Origin: Synechococcus sp. A18-25c
GTDB lineage: Bacteria; Cyanobacteriota; Cyanobacteriia; PCC-6307; Cyanobiaceae
Length of the DNA: 64,000 nt
Assembly (NCBI RefSeq): GCF_014280035.1
Contig: NZ_CP047957.1
Span: 1,364,001 to 1,428,000, forward strand
Direction: 5' to 3'
Part shown: positions 3 to 18,428 of the stretch, piece after piece
Layout of the letters: each line of letters opens with the position of its first letter
How positions within the stretch are numbered: position 1 is the first letter of the stretch
Notes under the pieces: generated by a model
Seen by the model: the letters and a program-made list of their open reading frames with translations, nothing else
Database searches by the model: none
Told to the model about the DNA's origin: nothing
Translations under genes and position numbers: made by a program

Positions 3-1109
3 CAGATTGAATTGATCTGTGAAGCTGTCTGCGATCTGCTGCAGTCGGATCCTCGATCACGGGTGCCGTATCAGCTAGTTCTGCAACTTTTGGATCAGGG
101 GTACGGCGGGCTGGAGCACGACAATGCATCAGTGATGCAATTTCCCTGGACCCGGCTGCAGGAGCAGGGTGGGATGCGAAGCCTTCTGCAGCTCATTGGC
201 CACGAGTATTTGCATCAATGGAATGTGCGTCGGCTCAGGCCGGTGGACTACGTGCCCTATCGCTACGACAAGCCGATCGTCAGTGATGGTCTCTGGTTCG
301 CCGAAGGGGTCACTAGTTATTTCGACCTCTTCCTTCCGTTGCTCTCGGGGTACTCCAGTCGTCTCGATTTGCTGGAGGATCTGGCGGCCGATCTCTCCCA
401 TGTGTTGTTGAACCCGGGAACGCAACTTCAGTCACTTGCGGACAGCTCGCGCGAAGCGTGGGTGCGCCTTTACAAACAGACTCCCGCCAACGCGCGAAGC
501 CAGGTCAGTTACTACCGCCTTGGCACAGCGCTGGCGTTCTGTCTTGATGTGGGTCTTCGTCAGGTCGGTGGTTCCCTAGCCGCCACCCTGCGTCTGCTCT
601 GGGGACGGTTGGGCCGCCACGGTCGCGGGTATGGCCGTCAGGACCTTATGGCAGCGATTGCAGACGTCTCCCCTCCACTGGCGGACCAATTGCCTGGATG
701 GCTTGATGGCCGTGGTGTGTTGCCCATCGACAGGTCACTGGAAACCATCGGGTTGTTGCTGGATCCAGTGATGGAAACGCAGGCCAACGCCGGTTGGACG
801 CTGCGTGAAGGAGACGGCACCGTCTGGATTGACCGCACCTTGGCAGGTGGAGCTGCTGAACGTGCCGGCTTGGTTCCTGGTGATGAACTCGTTGCTTTGC
901 GCGATTGGCGTTGCCGCACACTCAAGCGAACGCAACAGTTGCTCGATGGTCCTGAGCAATGTCAGGTGACCTACAGCCGCCGTGGCCTGATCGGCCACAC
1001 GCAGCTAGTCCTGGAGAAACCCGGGGTTGATCGTTACCGACTGATCTGGGACCCTGGTGCATCCAGGGAGGCTCGCTTGCTCCGAGATCAATGGTTTCAG
1101 GTCGTCTGA
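3..1109 (+). CDS. M61 family metallopeptidase with C-terminal PDZ domain (5' truncated)
   Basis: The reading frame is open to the left edge, so the N-terminus lies outside the window. The visible part has the zinc motif HEYLH followed by QWN, a downstream WFAEG segment that would supply the third ligand Glu, and an upstream GGLEH stretch; together these mark M61 (glycyl aminopeptidase-like) proteases. A PDZ-like module with AERAGLVPGDELVAL lies in the last 100 residues, as in other bacterial M61 proteins. The substrate is unknown. The gene overlaps the next one (amidase) by 19 nt, suggesting co-transcription. Confidence 0.85.
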   Translation, partial: QIELICEAVCDLLQSDPRSRVPYQLVLQLLDQGYGGLEHDNASVMQFPWTRLQEQGGMRSLLQLIGHEYLHQWNVRRLRPVDYVPYRYDKPIVSDGLWFAEGVTSYFDLFLPLLSGYSSRLDLLEDLAADLSHVLLNPGTQLQSLADSSREAWVRLYKQTPANARSQVSYYRLGTALAFCLDVGLRQVGGSLAATLRLLWGRLGRHGRGYGRQDLMAAIADVSPPLADQLPGWLDGRGVLPIDRSLETIGLLLDPVMETQANAGWTLREGDGTVWIDRTLAGGAAERAGLVPGDELVALRDWRCRTLKRTQQLLDGPEQCQVTYSRRGLIGHTQLVLEKPGVDRYRLIWDPGASREARLLRDQWFQVV

Positions 1110-14064: not shown

Positions 14065-16026
14065 ATGCAGTCCTCTTTGCTCGAGCAACCGGATCGCCTC
14101 GAACGACGCCTGAAGGAAATCCCGACAGAACCAGGTTGTTACCTGATGCGGGATGCCGAGGATCGTCTGCTGTACGTGGGCAAATCCAAAAGCTTGCGCA
14201 GCCGTGTCCGCAGCTATTTCCGAAGCCGACATGACCTGAGCCCGCGCATCCGGTTGATGGTGCGCCAGATCTGTGAAATCGAATTCATCGTTACAGACAG
14301 CGAGGCCGAAGCCCTCGCTTTGGAAGCCAATCTGATCAAGAACCAGCAGCCCCACTTCAATGTGCTGCTCAAGGACGACAAGAAATATCCCTATCTCTGC
14401 ATCACCTGGAGTGAGGCCTACCCAAGGATCTTCATCACCCGTCGTCGCCGGTTTCGCAGTCCACTCGACCGCTTCTATGGACCCTATGTCGATGTGGGGC
14501 TGCTGCGACGCACCCTGTTTCTCGTGAAGCGGGTGTTTCCGCTCAGGCAGCGGCCCCGTCCACTCCACCAGGATCGCACGTGCCTGAACTACAACATCGG
14601 GCGTTGTCCAGGGGTCTGCCAGGAGAAAATTAGCTCCGAGGATTATCACCGCACCTTGCGCAAGGTGGCGATGGTGTTCCAGGGCCGCAGCGACGAACTG
14701 CAGACCCTGTTGCGTGAACAAATGGATCGCTACGCAGAGCGACTTGATTTCGAAGCCGCCGCAAAGGTGCGTGATCAGCTGCAGGGACTGGATCAACTCA
14801 CCGCGGATCAGAAGATGAGCATCCCCGACTCATCGGTCAGTCGGGATGTCATCGCCATGGCTGCTGATGAGCGGCTCGCAGCCGTTCAGCTGTTTCAGAT
14901 GCGTGCCGGCAAGCTTGTCGGCCGATTGGGATACATGGCCGATGCCTCTGGTCAGGAACCAGGCCTGATTCTCCAGAGGGTGATCGAAGAGCACTACAGC
15001 CAGGTGGATGCCGTGGAGATTCCACCGGAGTTGCTGGTGCAGCATCCACTCCAGCAACAGGACCTGCTCGAGGAGTGGCTGACCGAGCAACGAGAGCGCA
15101 AGGTGCAGATCCATTGCCCCAAGCAACGTCAGAAAGCGGATCTGATCGATCTGGTGCAGCGCAATGCCGATTACGAACTTCAGCGTGCCAAGCAGAGTCA
15201 GGAACAGCAGGCCCTGGCCACAGAGGATTTGGCACAACTGTTGGAGCTGCCCATACCTCCCCGTCGGATTGAGGGCTACGACATCAGTCACATTCAGGGC
15301 AGCGACGCAGTGGCGTCCCAAGTGGTCTTCATCGATGGGCTTCCTGCGAAGCAGCACTACCGCAAATACAAAATCCGCAGCAGCAGTATCCAAGCCGGAC
15401 ACAGCGATGACTTCATGGCCATGGCCGAGATCATGCGTCGTCGTTTCCGGCGTTGGGCCAGGGCCAAGGCTGACGGTGTTGATCTCGGTGCCCTTCGTCA
15501 TCAGGGCGGCAGTGCCTTGCAGACCGATGGCCTGAACGACTGGCCTGATGTGGTGATGATCGACGGTGGCAAGGGGCAGCTATCAGCGGTGATGGAGGCC
15601 TTGCGGGAGCTCAACCTGCATGAGGACCTCAACGTGTGTTCTCTGGCGAAGCAACGCGAAGAGATCTTCATGCCAGGGGAAAGTCAGCCACTCGACAGCG
15701 AGCCGGATCAACTAGGTGTTGGTCTGCTTCGGCGCTTGCGCGATGAAGCGCATCGGTTCGCCGTGAGTTTTCACCGGCAGCAGCGTGGTGAGCGCATGAA
15801 ACGTTCGCGTCTGTCGGACATCCCTGGCGTTGGTCCCAAGCGGGTCAAAGACCTGCTGGCCCACTTTCATTCCATCGATGCCATTCAACTGGCCACGGTT
15901 GAAACACTGGCTCAGGCTCCAGGGGTCGGCCTGGCCCTGGCAAGGGATATCCGCCGGTTCTTTCACCCCGATGAGGATCCAGAGCAGGATGGGGCCACTC
16001 ACGACCCTGGAGCATCCCAGCCATGA
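14065..16026 (+). CDS. uvrC: Excinuclease ABC subunit C
   Basis: 653 aa nucleotide-excision repair nuclease that makes both incisions with UvrB. Domains in order: GIY-YIG nuclease (PGCYLMRD ... [14 protein letters not shown]), a conserved Cys region ([14 protein letters not shown]), UVR/UvrB-binding helix pair ([15 protein letters not shown] near residue 230), the RNase H-like 5' nuclease domain ([22 protein letters not shown]), and C-terminal helix-hairpin-helix motifs ([25 protein letters not shown]). Full length. The following small gene begins at its stop codon. Confidence 0.96.
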
Positions 16027-16322
16027 TGCGAGTCCTCATCCTGACCGCCCTTTTGTTTGGTCTGCTTACAGGACTGGTATCCCCCTTCCGTGTTGAGGCG
16101 TCTCCAGGTCTTTGCACCGGTCCTGTCTGTGCCGATGACATCACGCGCAGTGCCAAGAACCACTGGCAACTGGTGCTCAAACTGAATGATCAGCTTGGCC
16201 ATCGCGAAAAGGTCGTGATGAATTGCAGAGCTGGCCAGCTCAGTCCAATGTCCGGTCCTGTGGACCGCGCTTACGCCACAGCCATTGGACGACGCGCCTG
16301 TCGACTGGCCGGTGAAGGCTGA
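16023..16322 (+). CDS. Small secreted cysteine-containing hypothetical protein
   Basis: 99 aa that I do not recognise. A clear signal peptide ([21 protein letters not shown], cleavage probably near VEA-SPG) precedes about 70 residues with four cysteines: two in [11 protein letters not shown], one in MNCRAG and one in RRACRLAG, which could form two disulfides. It overlaps the uvrC stop by 4 nt and ends 2 nt before the photolyase-family gene, so it should be co-transcribed with both. A periplasmic or thylakoid-lumen location is inferred. Confidence 0.7.
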
Positions 16323-16324
16323 CG

Positions 16325-17812
16325 ATGGAACTGACGCTGATCTTTCCCCATCAGCTGTTTGCTGATCATCCCTGTCTGAAATCCGGCCGGTCGGTGGCCC
16401 TGATCGAAGATCCGCTGTTCTTTGGCACTGATCCCCAATGGCCGATGCAGGTGCATCGCCAGCGTGTTTTGCTACACCGCGCATCGATGTCGGCCTACGC
16501 CGACACGTTGCGTGAGCGTGGTTACCACGTCGTTCAACGTCATCATCACCAGGCCAGCAACACAGAAGGGCACCTGCAGTCTTTGGTCGATCAAGGATTT
16601 CGCAGCTTTCACCTCGCTGATCCCATCGACGATCTTCTATCGAAACGACTGCGGAGTTTTGTTGCCTCCAATGCCTATGGCCTGGAGATCAGCGCAACAC
16701 CAATGCTGCTGACGCCCGATGCCGTTGTTGAGGAGCACTTCAACAACGGGCGCAAGCCGTTCATGGCCAAGTTTTATGAGATGCAGCGTCGACGCCTTGG
16801 TGTGTTGATGGATGCCGAGGGCAATCCTGTCGGAGGGAAATGGAGCTTTGATGCTGACAATCGCAAGAAGCTGCCCAAGGGCATCGTGGTGCCACCAGAG
16901 CCGGACGTTGGCTCTGATTCACGCGTAGATCAGGCCCGCGAACAACTGGATGCTGAGCAGCTGCCGTTGATTGGTTCCTGGACGCATTTTGCGTACCCGC
17001 TTGATCATCACCAGGCCGATCGATGGTTGCAAACCTTTTTAGAGGCCAGGTTGAAGCAATTCGGGTCCTATGAGGATGCCATCAGTACCCAGCACCGGGT
17101 GATGTGGCACAGCGTGCTGACCCCCATGCTCAATATCGGTCTGCTGACACCGCAACAGGTTCTGGACCGAACCCTTGAACGGGCTTCAGAAGGTGACGTT
17201 CCTCTCAACTCGCTTGAGGGATTCATCCGCCAGATCATCGGTTGGAGAGAGTTCATGGCAGCGATGTACAAGCGCCATGGCGTCGTGATGCGCAATGGAA
17301 ATTTCTGGGAGTTCGAAGACCGGCCCATTCCCCAGGCGTTCTACCAGGGAACCACGGGACTTCCTCCGATCGACGATGCCATCCGACATGCGCTCGAGAC
17401 CGGCTACTGCCATCACATCGAACGGTTGATGCTGCTCGGCAATGTGATGTTGTTATGTGGCTTTCATCCGACCCGGGTCTACACCTGGTTCATGGAGTTG
17501 TTCGTGGATGCCTTCGACTGGGTGATGGTTCCCAATGTGTATGGCATGAGCCAGTTCGCTGACGCGGGTTTATTCACTACCAAGCCCTATTTGTCGGGAT
17601 CCAACTATGTCCGCAAGATGTCGGACTATCGCAAGGGCGAGTGGTGCGATGTCTGGGATGGATTGTTTTGGAGTTTCATCAAGAGGCATGAGACCTTTTT
17701 CCGTGGTCAGTACCGCCTGGCGATGATGGCTCGCAACCTCGATCGCATGGCACCAGAGGTGCTTAACACTCATCAGCACCGTGCAGGGATGTTCCTTGAA
17801 TCCCTGACTTGA
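16325..17812 (+). CDS. Cryptochrome/photolyase family protein of the FeS-BCP (PhrB/CryB) type, lacking most cluster cysteines
   Basis: 495 aa. The N-terminal LTLIFPHQLF domain and the FAD-binding part (VMWHSVLTPMLNIGLLTP, GFIRQIIGWREFM, HHIERLMLLGN, VPNVYGMSQFADAGLFTTKPY) match the deoxyribodipyrimidine photolyase-related family typified by Agrobacterium PhrB, a (6-4) photolyase, and Rhodobacter CryB. Those proteins bind a 4Fe-4S cluster with four Cys. Here the loop after MSDY is short (RKGEWCDVWDG), and the upstream Cys position appears to be Pro (about residue 348), so at most one ligand remains. Neighbourhood with uvrC supports a repair role. Confidence 0.85.
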   Translation: MELTLIFPHQLFADHPCLKSGRSVALIEDPLFFGTDPQWPMQVHRQRVLLHRASMSAYADTLRERGYHVVQRHHHQASNTEGHLQSLVDQGFRSFHLADPIDDLLSKRLRSFVASNAYGLEISATPMLLTPDAVVEEHFNNGRKPFMAKFYEMQRRRLGVLMDAEGNPVGGKWSFDADNRKKLPKGIVVPPEPDVGSDSRVDQAREQLDAEQLPLIGSWTHFAYPLDHHQADRWLQTFLEARLKQFGSYEDAISTQHRVMWHSVLTPMLNIGLLTPQQVLDRTLERASEGDVPLNSLEGFIRQIIGWREFMAAMYKRHGVVMRNGNFWEFEDRPIPQAFYQGTTGLPPIDDAIRHALETGYCHHIERLMLLGNVMLLCGFHPTRVYTWFMELFVDAFDWVMVPNVYGMSQFADAGLFTTKPYLSGSNYVRKMSDYRKGEWCDVWDGLFWSFIKRHETFFRGQYRLAMMARNLDRMAPEVLNTHQHRAGMFLESLT

Positions 17813-17846: not shown

Positions 17847-18428
17847 ATGACGCTCTCTCCCGAGGCCTATCTCTGGTTTAAGACCCTTCACATCGTCGGT
17901 GTGGTCGTTTGGTTTGCAGGGTTGTTTTACCTCGTGAGGTTGTTCATCTACCACGTGGAAGCCGAAGAGCTGGCTCCTGAACTGCGCACGGCCTTTCAGC
18001 AGCAATACGGGCTCATGGAGAAGCGTCTCGCGAACATCATCACGACCCCAGGAATGGTGGTGGCGGTCTCCATGGCGATCGGACTGCTCATCGCTCAGCC
18101 CTCCTGGTTACAACAAGGTTGGATGCACGCCAAGCTTGCGTTTGTGGCTGCGCTTCTGGCTTATCACGTTTTCTGCTACCGGTTAATGGGCCAGCTGCAG
18201 TCAGGAACCTGCCAATGGAACGGCAAGCAGCTGCGTGCACTGAATGAACTTCCCACGCTGCTGTTGGTGATCGTGGTGATGCTGGTGGTGTTTAAGACCC
18301 AATTCCCCACTAGTGCTGCCACCTGGTTCATCGTGGGCTTGGTGGTGTTCATGGCAGCCTCAATTCAGTTCTATGCCCGCTGGCGTCGACTTCGTGCCGA
18401 AGCCGCTGCTGCCGAACCATCCAGCTGA
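17847..18428 (+). CDS. hemJ: Protoporphyrinogen IX oxidase HemJ
   Basis: 193 aa integral membrane protein with four to five predicted helices. The N-terminal LWFKTLHIVGVVVWFAGLFYLVRLF, with the conserved His thought to bind heme, YGLMEKRLANIITTPGM, and WMHAKLAFVAALLAYH match the HemJ family, the protoporphyrinogen oxidase used by most cyanobacteria. It makes protoporphyrin IX for heme, chlorophyll and bilins. It is 34 nt after the photolyase-type gene and 8 nt before the PHP gene, all in the same direction. Confidence 0.92.
   Translation: MTLSPEAYLWFKTLHIVGVVVWFAGLFYLVRLFIYHVEAEELAPELRTAFQQQYGLMEKRLANIITTPGMVVAVSMAIGLLIAQPSWLQQGWMHAKLAFVAALLAYHVFCYRLMGQLQSGTCQWNGKQLRALNELPTLLLVIVVMLVVFKTQFPTSAATWFIVGLVVFMAASIQFYARWRRLRAEAAAAEPSS

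Follow-up and report, generated by a model that had tools for sequence, protein, structure and literature searches.

A photolyase of marine Synechococcus without the iron-sulfur cluster cysteines of its PhrB/CryB relatives, and its probable acquisition from a Verrucomicrobia-like source

Sequence alignment confirms that phr2 of Synechococcus sp. A18-25c encodes a predicted photolyase without the iron-sulfur cluster cysteines of its PhrB/CryB relatives. We consider, at a probability of roughly 0.7, that a Verrucomicrobia-like donor supplied a gene, already cluster-less, which displaced an Fe-S gene and whose product is a FAD-based, likely (6-4) photolyase of the PromaPL/Phr2 class; the cysteines were probably not lost in this bacterium. 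The ancestor of marine Synechococcus and Prochlorococcus would have acquired the gene in its cluster-less form, and in marine Synechococcus it would now occupy the slot where relatives keep a vertically inherited Fe-S enzyme.

The protein and its missing cysteines

The gene (16325..17812, + strand, of the window, i.e., the whole 64,000-nucleotide stretch analyzed, from a host genome of one 2.51-Mb contig) encodes a 495-aa cluster-less prokaryotic (6-4)-type photolyase, as recognized from the open reading frame, Pfam and PDB matches and an AlphaFold2 model. Its product carries the DPRP domain (PF04244, 1.1e-48) and the photolyase FAD domain (FAD_binding_7, 4.6e-8) expected of cluster-less prokaryotic (6-4) photolyases, and matches eight distinct prokaryotic (6-4) photolyase/CryB sequences in the PDB (5e-75 to 3.9e-64), the solved structures being those of SePhrB, the Vc, Cc and A. 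fabrum (6-4) photolyases, and CryB. A preliminary description of this DNA, whose interval 17300-17680 covers the relevant part of the gene, had placed the protein in the PhrB/CryB group, and the match indeed extends over most of its length (PhrB 5KCM residues 44-506). The structural modeling it suggested gave a confident AlphaFold2 model (54 sequences, pLDDT 94.9, pTM 0.93) with a TM of 0.93 to PhrB (5KCM) and 0.92 to 4DJA. The linker at residues 196-223 (with a predicted helix at 199-211) is kept in this protein and absent from a 468-470-aa version found in the same genus (L018, L019, L020 and L141) and in a Synechococcus MAG (L056/L158); owing to the missing linker, the phr2-type gene was read as two pieces in three genomes of the genus.

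The set of four conserved Cys that binds a [4Fe-4S] cluster and marks the FeS-BCP (PhrB/CryB) subtype is not found in the phr2 product. When aligned with PhrB (5KCM), the C350 site is occupied by P348 (codon 17366..17368, + strand), the CxxC pair C438 and C441 falls in a 10-residue gap after MSDY in the pairwise alignment (R436 occupies the C438 column in the multiple alignment), and the C454 site corresponds to D442, one residue from the protein's own C441. The CxxC...C loop is replaced in the alignments by a shortened one, RKGEWCDVWD (residues 436-445; 17630..17659, + strand). The preliminary description was right that the cluster Cys and the CxxC are gone and that the upstream position is Pro, and the spacings of 88 and 13 residues that it gave agree with C350/C438/C441/C454 of PhrB. 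Among 241 homologues (256 extracted proteins, 245 after removing identical ones, with L155, the same protein as L071, and the truncated L106, L116 and L144 then dropped), 150 are without the four-Cys set, 91 have all four and none is intermediate, so that the absence is not a matter of chance. The probably misbinned L094 is included in these counts and stands outside the trees and the structure alignment.

The same division is seen site by site. Among non-redundant proteins the C350 site is Cys in all 86 of the Fe-S type and Pro in 110/111 of the cluster-less type, and the loop residues W440, W444 and D445 are found in 110, 109 and 111 of these 111 cluster-less proteins, respectively. The stretch between Y435 and D445 measures nine residues (436-444) in 149/150 cluster-less rows and 19 (n = 82), 14 (n = 6) or 23 (n = 3) in Fe-S rows. 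The remaining cluster-less row, L247 (G1024, Planctomycetota), has a loop of 19 residues that lacks the Cys set and belongs to an open frame of 970 or 1136 codons, possibly a fusion, and another outlier, L243 (G843, Bacteroidota), is cluster-less without the W440/W444 motif and has a deletion near the C350 site. The Fe-S-type proteins with a 14-residue loop (L256-L261, Planctomycetota) keep all four Cys, and hence shortening of the loop does not require that cysteines be lost.

C441, which the preliminary description had counted as a possible leftover ligand, does not qualify as such: the column is Cys in 79/111 non-redundant cluster-less proteins, with Q, A, S, N or T in most of the others. 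The protein does possess four Cys (C17, C362, C378 and C441), on which one might base the proposal that it still binds iron via other ligands. However, Cys at 17 is rare in the class and C362 is found in 58/111 proteins, less often than C441, leaving C378 (96/111) as the one that is common; the alignment with PhrB, CryB and homologues suggested at the outset thus yielded no other conserved four-Cys set among the 111 cluster-less proteins, and we regard iron binding of this kind as extremely improbable.

How such a protein keeps its integrity was asked in the preliminary description and can be answered in part only. The cluster is apparently required for the stability of PhrB, whose Cys mutants are described as insoluble or unexpressed (PMC4619345), and elsewhere the photolyase cluster is said to be of "yet unknown function" (PMC12082625). 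In the phr2 product, the segment shortened by ten residues is confidently predicted (pLDDT 95 for residues 431-440 and 98 for 441-450, with a helix beginning at 439), and we infer that its class-typical W440, W444 and D445 pack into the place of the cluster, by which the fold could stand without iron.

Active site, electron path and substrate

H364 and L368 (17414..17428, + strand) align with His366 and Leu370 of PhrB, and together with D176, D251, Y422 and Y428 (Asp179, Asp254, Tyr424 and Tyr430 of PhrB), i.e., the set expected of the cluster-less prokaryotic (6-4) class, they are invariant in 111/111 cluster-less and 86/86 Fe-S non-redundant proteins. None of 12 other photolyase-family proteins has His at the H364 place; 11 carry Asn...Met at the two positions and the twelfth Phe...Ala. 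Asn...Met is also what the class I CPD photolyase of E. coli has there, and this feature is seen in another protein of the same genome (L002) and not in the phr2 product, which has His...Leu. The roles of His366, Tyr424 and Tyr430 have been described for PhrB, in which H366N abolishes repair and Y424 is required for lesion binding (PMC4619345). Given that the (6-4)-repair residues are fully conserved, the phr2 product is most likely a (6-4) photolyase. Excited FADH- would give an electron to the (6-4) lesion and H364 would donate a proton, as in PhrB.

A different substrate has been proposed for Phr2, which was considered a CPD photolyase on account of its missing cysteines (PMC9426592), and the finding in the same source that loss of phr2 chiefly reduces survival under UV-B speaks for such a role. 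Survival of the RS9916 mutant under UV-B was ca. 1000-fold lower, and E. coli gains light-dependent protection from the gene (PMC9426592). Nevertheless, the invariant His/Leu signature and PhrB Mg and lesion-contact residues, set against the Asn...Met or Phe...Ala of the other family members, argue against CPD repair, and the same paper itself terms PromaPL a (6-4) photolyase; we therefore hold the CPD role to be rather unlikely.

In the electron chain, W388-F389 (17486..17491, + strand; Trp390-Tyr391 of PhrB by alignment) is kept, and the distal Trp342 of PhrB is replaced by Y340 (17342..17344, + strand). The Trp342 place holds Tyr in 78/111 and Trp in 18/111 cluster-less proteins, against Trp in 69/86 of the Fe-S type, and the position close to FAD N5 carries Met in 111/111 cluster-less proteins, with Glu in 46/86 and Met in 24/86 Fe-S ones. 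F397 (17513-17515) puts Phe at the PhrB Tyr399 place, where 108/111 non-redundant cluster-less proteins have Tyr. The antenna motif GDQL reads PHQL in the phr2 product, the Gly being retained in Cyanobium-like rows and in L247. An 8-hydroxy-deazaflavin antenna has been assumed by analogy for picocyanobacterial photolyases (PMC9426592). A search for CofH gave no match in the A18-25c genome at E <= 0.001, which makes such an antenna unlikely here.

Distribution, descent and chromosomal slot

Cluster-less photolyases are spread over many phyla. A named scan gave at least 592 pattern matches, at least 590 of them confirmed, and the best 80 of 590 that were examined place the class in Prochlorococcus, Verrucomicrobiota, Planctomycetota, Bacteroidota, Roseobacters, Acidobacteriota, Ignavibacteriota and others; Chitinophaga is among the cluster-less matches listed. 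Phylum samples gave matches in 72/244 genomes of Cyanobacteria (22 with cluster-less scores, 48 with Fe-S scores and two weak ones with an internal stop), 52/249 of Pseudomonadota (one cluster-less, the sample center, which was picked for having it), 30/194 of Verrucomicrobiota (eight cluster-less), 65/198 of Bacteroidota (23 cluster-less) and 17/149 of Planctomycetota (three cluster-less), the last three counts including the sample center. Class was assigned by E-value alone where the locus was unfetched; all fetched rows agreed with their side, and no match fell between E 2.4e-109 and 1.0e-86. Within the family, 50 of 60 matching genomes were aligned (34 cluster-less, 16 Fe-S), each of the 60 has one gene of one type (0/60 with both at E <= 1e-40), and in three genera (g6, g31, g45) some genomes have the one type and some the other. 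A Rhodobacteraceae MAG (DT_101; L071/L155) has a contig with a Prochlorococcus-like photolyase binned together with a genome in which an Fe-S type gene is present as well, a case of probable contamination.

The trees separate the two types and place the marine genes among those of Verrucomicrobiota. A careful tree of 80 hand-picked rows, computed with the cluster columns excluded, separates Fe-S from cluster-less rows by a single branch (100/100). Marine Synechococcus and Prochlorococcus form one clade (98/93), i.e., the phr2 product groups with the Prochlorococcus proteins, which likewise lack the four-Cys set (PromaPL/subgroup M), and not with FeS-BCP; this clade is joined by four verrucomicrobial rows (99/97) and then by 12 (99/96), with four more (L193, L195, L197 and L198) outside the group. 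Quick trees were also computed on 80 rows, and in one tree set 91 of 100 named rows are present, the other nine being filed under an identical twin. Here the Cyanobium-like cluster-less genes lie apart from the marine clade, with a planctomycete row (97), and a constraint that unites all cluster-less rows of picocyanobacteria lowers lnL by 70.6 (p-AU 0.035). In a quick tree, too, picocyanobacterial Fe-S genes fall together with their counterparts from other cyanobacteria (100), which fits the prediction of vertical descent.

Donor and direction of transfer are matters of inference from these trees. A transfer in which picocyanobacteria were the donor and Verrucomicrobiota the recipient, or in which both received the gene from an unsampled third source, would be in keeping with the MAG origin of several verrucomicrobial rows, whose contigs may be misbinned, although L057 lies on an 839-kb contig, and direction is read from nesting alone. 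However, the support just given holds for twelve verrucomicrobial rows that bracket the marine clade, and we consider both alternatives quite unlikely.

The preliminary description had seen in the missing cluster a loss of adaptive value in an iron-poor ocean. All sampled marine Synechococcus and Prochlorococcus with a phr2 match are cluster-less, and relatives hold an Fe-S gene in the same slot, just as expected had the cysteines been lost within marine picocyanobacteria. Against this stand the many phyla, Chitinophaga and Planctomycetota included, that share the cluster-less branch, the nesting of the marine genes in a verrucomicrobial group, and sliding windows, in all 12 of which the best of four verrucomicrobial rows was closer to the phr2 product than the best of seven Fe-S picocyanobacterial rows (38 vs 37% in the narrowest case). 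Moreover, the genome retains a Phr4-like protein, a 344-aa frame outside the window (G000:C1:265717-266748; L004, L307) with exactly four Cys (199, 284, 287 and 293) in the cluster pattern, probably an Fe-S photolyase-like protein. Loss within the lineage, contradicted by tree nesting and window identities alike, is thus very unlikely, and iron scarcity is not supported as its cause, even though iron saving may have favored retention of the swapped gene. The same windows dispose of a chimera of foreign and resident gene; in the narrowest case (window 161-220), identity is higher still, 42%, with Prochlorococcus and Cyanobium-like rows.

What stands of the suggested loss would be an older event. 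All ten short photolyase-like outgroup proteins, the one from A18-25c included, have Cys at the C350 place and the CxxC...C set, and for this reason the cluster is probably old and the cluster-less class as a whole probably lost ancestral cysteines; the loss would not belong to this ocean lineage. A tree rooted on the short photolyase-like proteins and two own-genome photolyases has long outgroup branches, and the cluster-less rows do not form one side of it.

The chromosomal position of phr2 bears on how the acquired gene came to rest. In the window, uvrC (14065..16026, + strand; Pfam UvrC domains, conserved order) is overlapped at its end by a 99-aa ORF (16023..16322, + strand) that is conserved at the slot and has no Pfam match, phr2 begins 2 bases on, and 34 bases beyond it lies a UPF0093 gene (17847..18428, + strand; PF03653, 3.3e-46), which we take to be hemJ-like, followed by a PHP gene. 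The uvrC, small ORF and hemJ-like neighbors flank the cluster-less gene in 10/10 marine Synechococcus-type loci (nine other genomes). Fe-S loci were surveyed in 20/26 family genomes of the Fe-S type, the six on short contigs or near contig ends being left out, and the Fe-S gene shares slot neighbors on one or both sides in 19/20: close neighbors stand on both sides in 12 (uvrC or the small ORF on one, the hemJ-like gene on the other), the hemJ-like gene adjoins with uvrC 1.6-3.1 kb away in three, the uvrC side alone is shared in three and the hemJ-like side alone in one, and neither in the last. In the five Prochlorococcus tested, uvrC adjoins the hemJ-like gene and the cluster-less gene lies elsewhere; the move into the slot may therefore have come later. 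Ten of 19 Cyanobium-like genomes were tested. In seven of them uvrC lies next to the hemJ-like gene and phr2 is missing there; in two the stretch contains no uvrC and no phr2; and in one (G035) uvrC and the hemJ-like gene enclose a 77-aa fragment of an Fe-S gene, which shares 62% identity with one Fe-S gene and as much as 74% with a second.

These observations fit an ancestral Fe-S gene in the slot, which gave way there to phr2 in marine Synechococcus and disappeared from that position in other lineages. We think it probable that the foreign, iron-free homologue displaced the resident gene in its slot in marine Synechococcus and that the Fe-S gene of a second picocyanobacterial clade was replaced separately, by a gene located elsewhere, the G035 fragment being what would survive of the old gene. 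The 12/20 Fe-S loci with both neighbors close and the four verrucomicrobial rows outside the group lower the odds slightly. As for the route, recombination through shared flanks bringing a non-orthologous gene into the same slot is our guess.

Relation to known photolyases

Replacement in place is, within the limits of our literature search, the part not found in print: we found no published outside origin of the gene, the words "horizontal" and "lateral" do not occur in the searched text of PMC9426592, nor "horizontal" in that of PMC9178010. Our results correct the attractive notion that the cluster was stripped here by a scarcity of iron in the ocean, and they put the published CPD assignment (PMC9426592) in question. 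A natural cluster-less class that folds and protects cells, in the same slot as the Fe-S enzymes of close relatives, also offers matched pairs for testing what the cluster contributes.

The absence of the cluster in such photolyases is already published in kind, for PromaPL, subgroup M and marine Synechococcus Phr2. PromaPL was reportedly introduced in a 2019 paper in the FEBS Journal. PromaPL of Prochlorococcus, i.e., subgroup M of the prokaryotic 6-4 photolyases, shares fold, sequence class and lack of the four-Cys set with the phr2 product (PMC9178010) and forms one clade with the marine Synechococcus genes, but phr2 lies in the uvrC/hemJ-like slot and the Prochlorococcus gene elsewhere. 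Phr2 of marine Synechococcus, e.g., RS9916, is likewise PhrB-like, cluster-less and downstream of uvrC (PMC9426592), and phr2 of A18-25c is very probably the same gene; the difference is one of substrate, CPD repair being proposed there and (6-4) repair indicated by the residues here. Short photolyase-like/Phr4-type proteins, of which A18-25c has one, share the FAD domain of the family but retain Cys at all four cluster positions and show Asn...Met where the phr2 product has His...Leu. Finally, the FeS-BCP enzymes (PhrB, CryB, SePhrB and the Vc and Cc (6-4) photolyases) resemble the phr2 product in domain architecture, active-site His/Leu, Mg Asp and lesion Tyr (TM ca. 0.9 to the model, identity ca. 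30%), whereas phr2 is without the Cys set, has a loop shorter by ten residues and, like most of its class, reads PHQL for GDQL.
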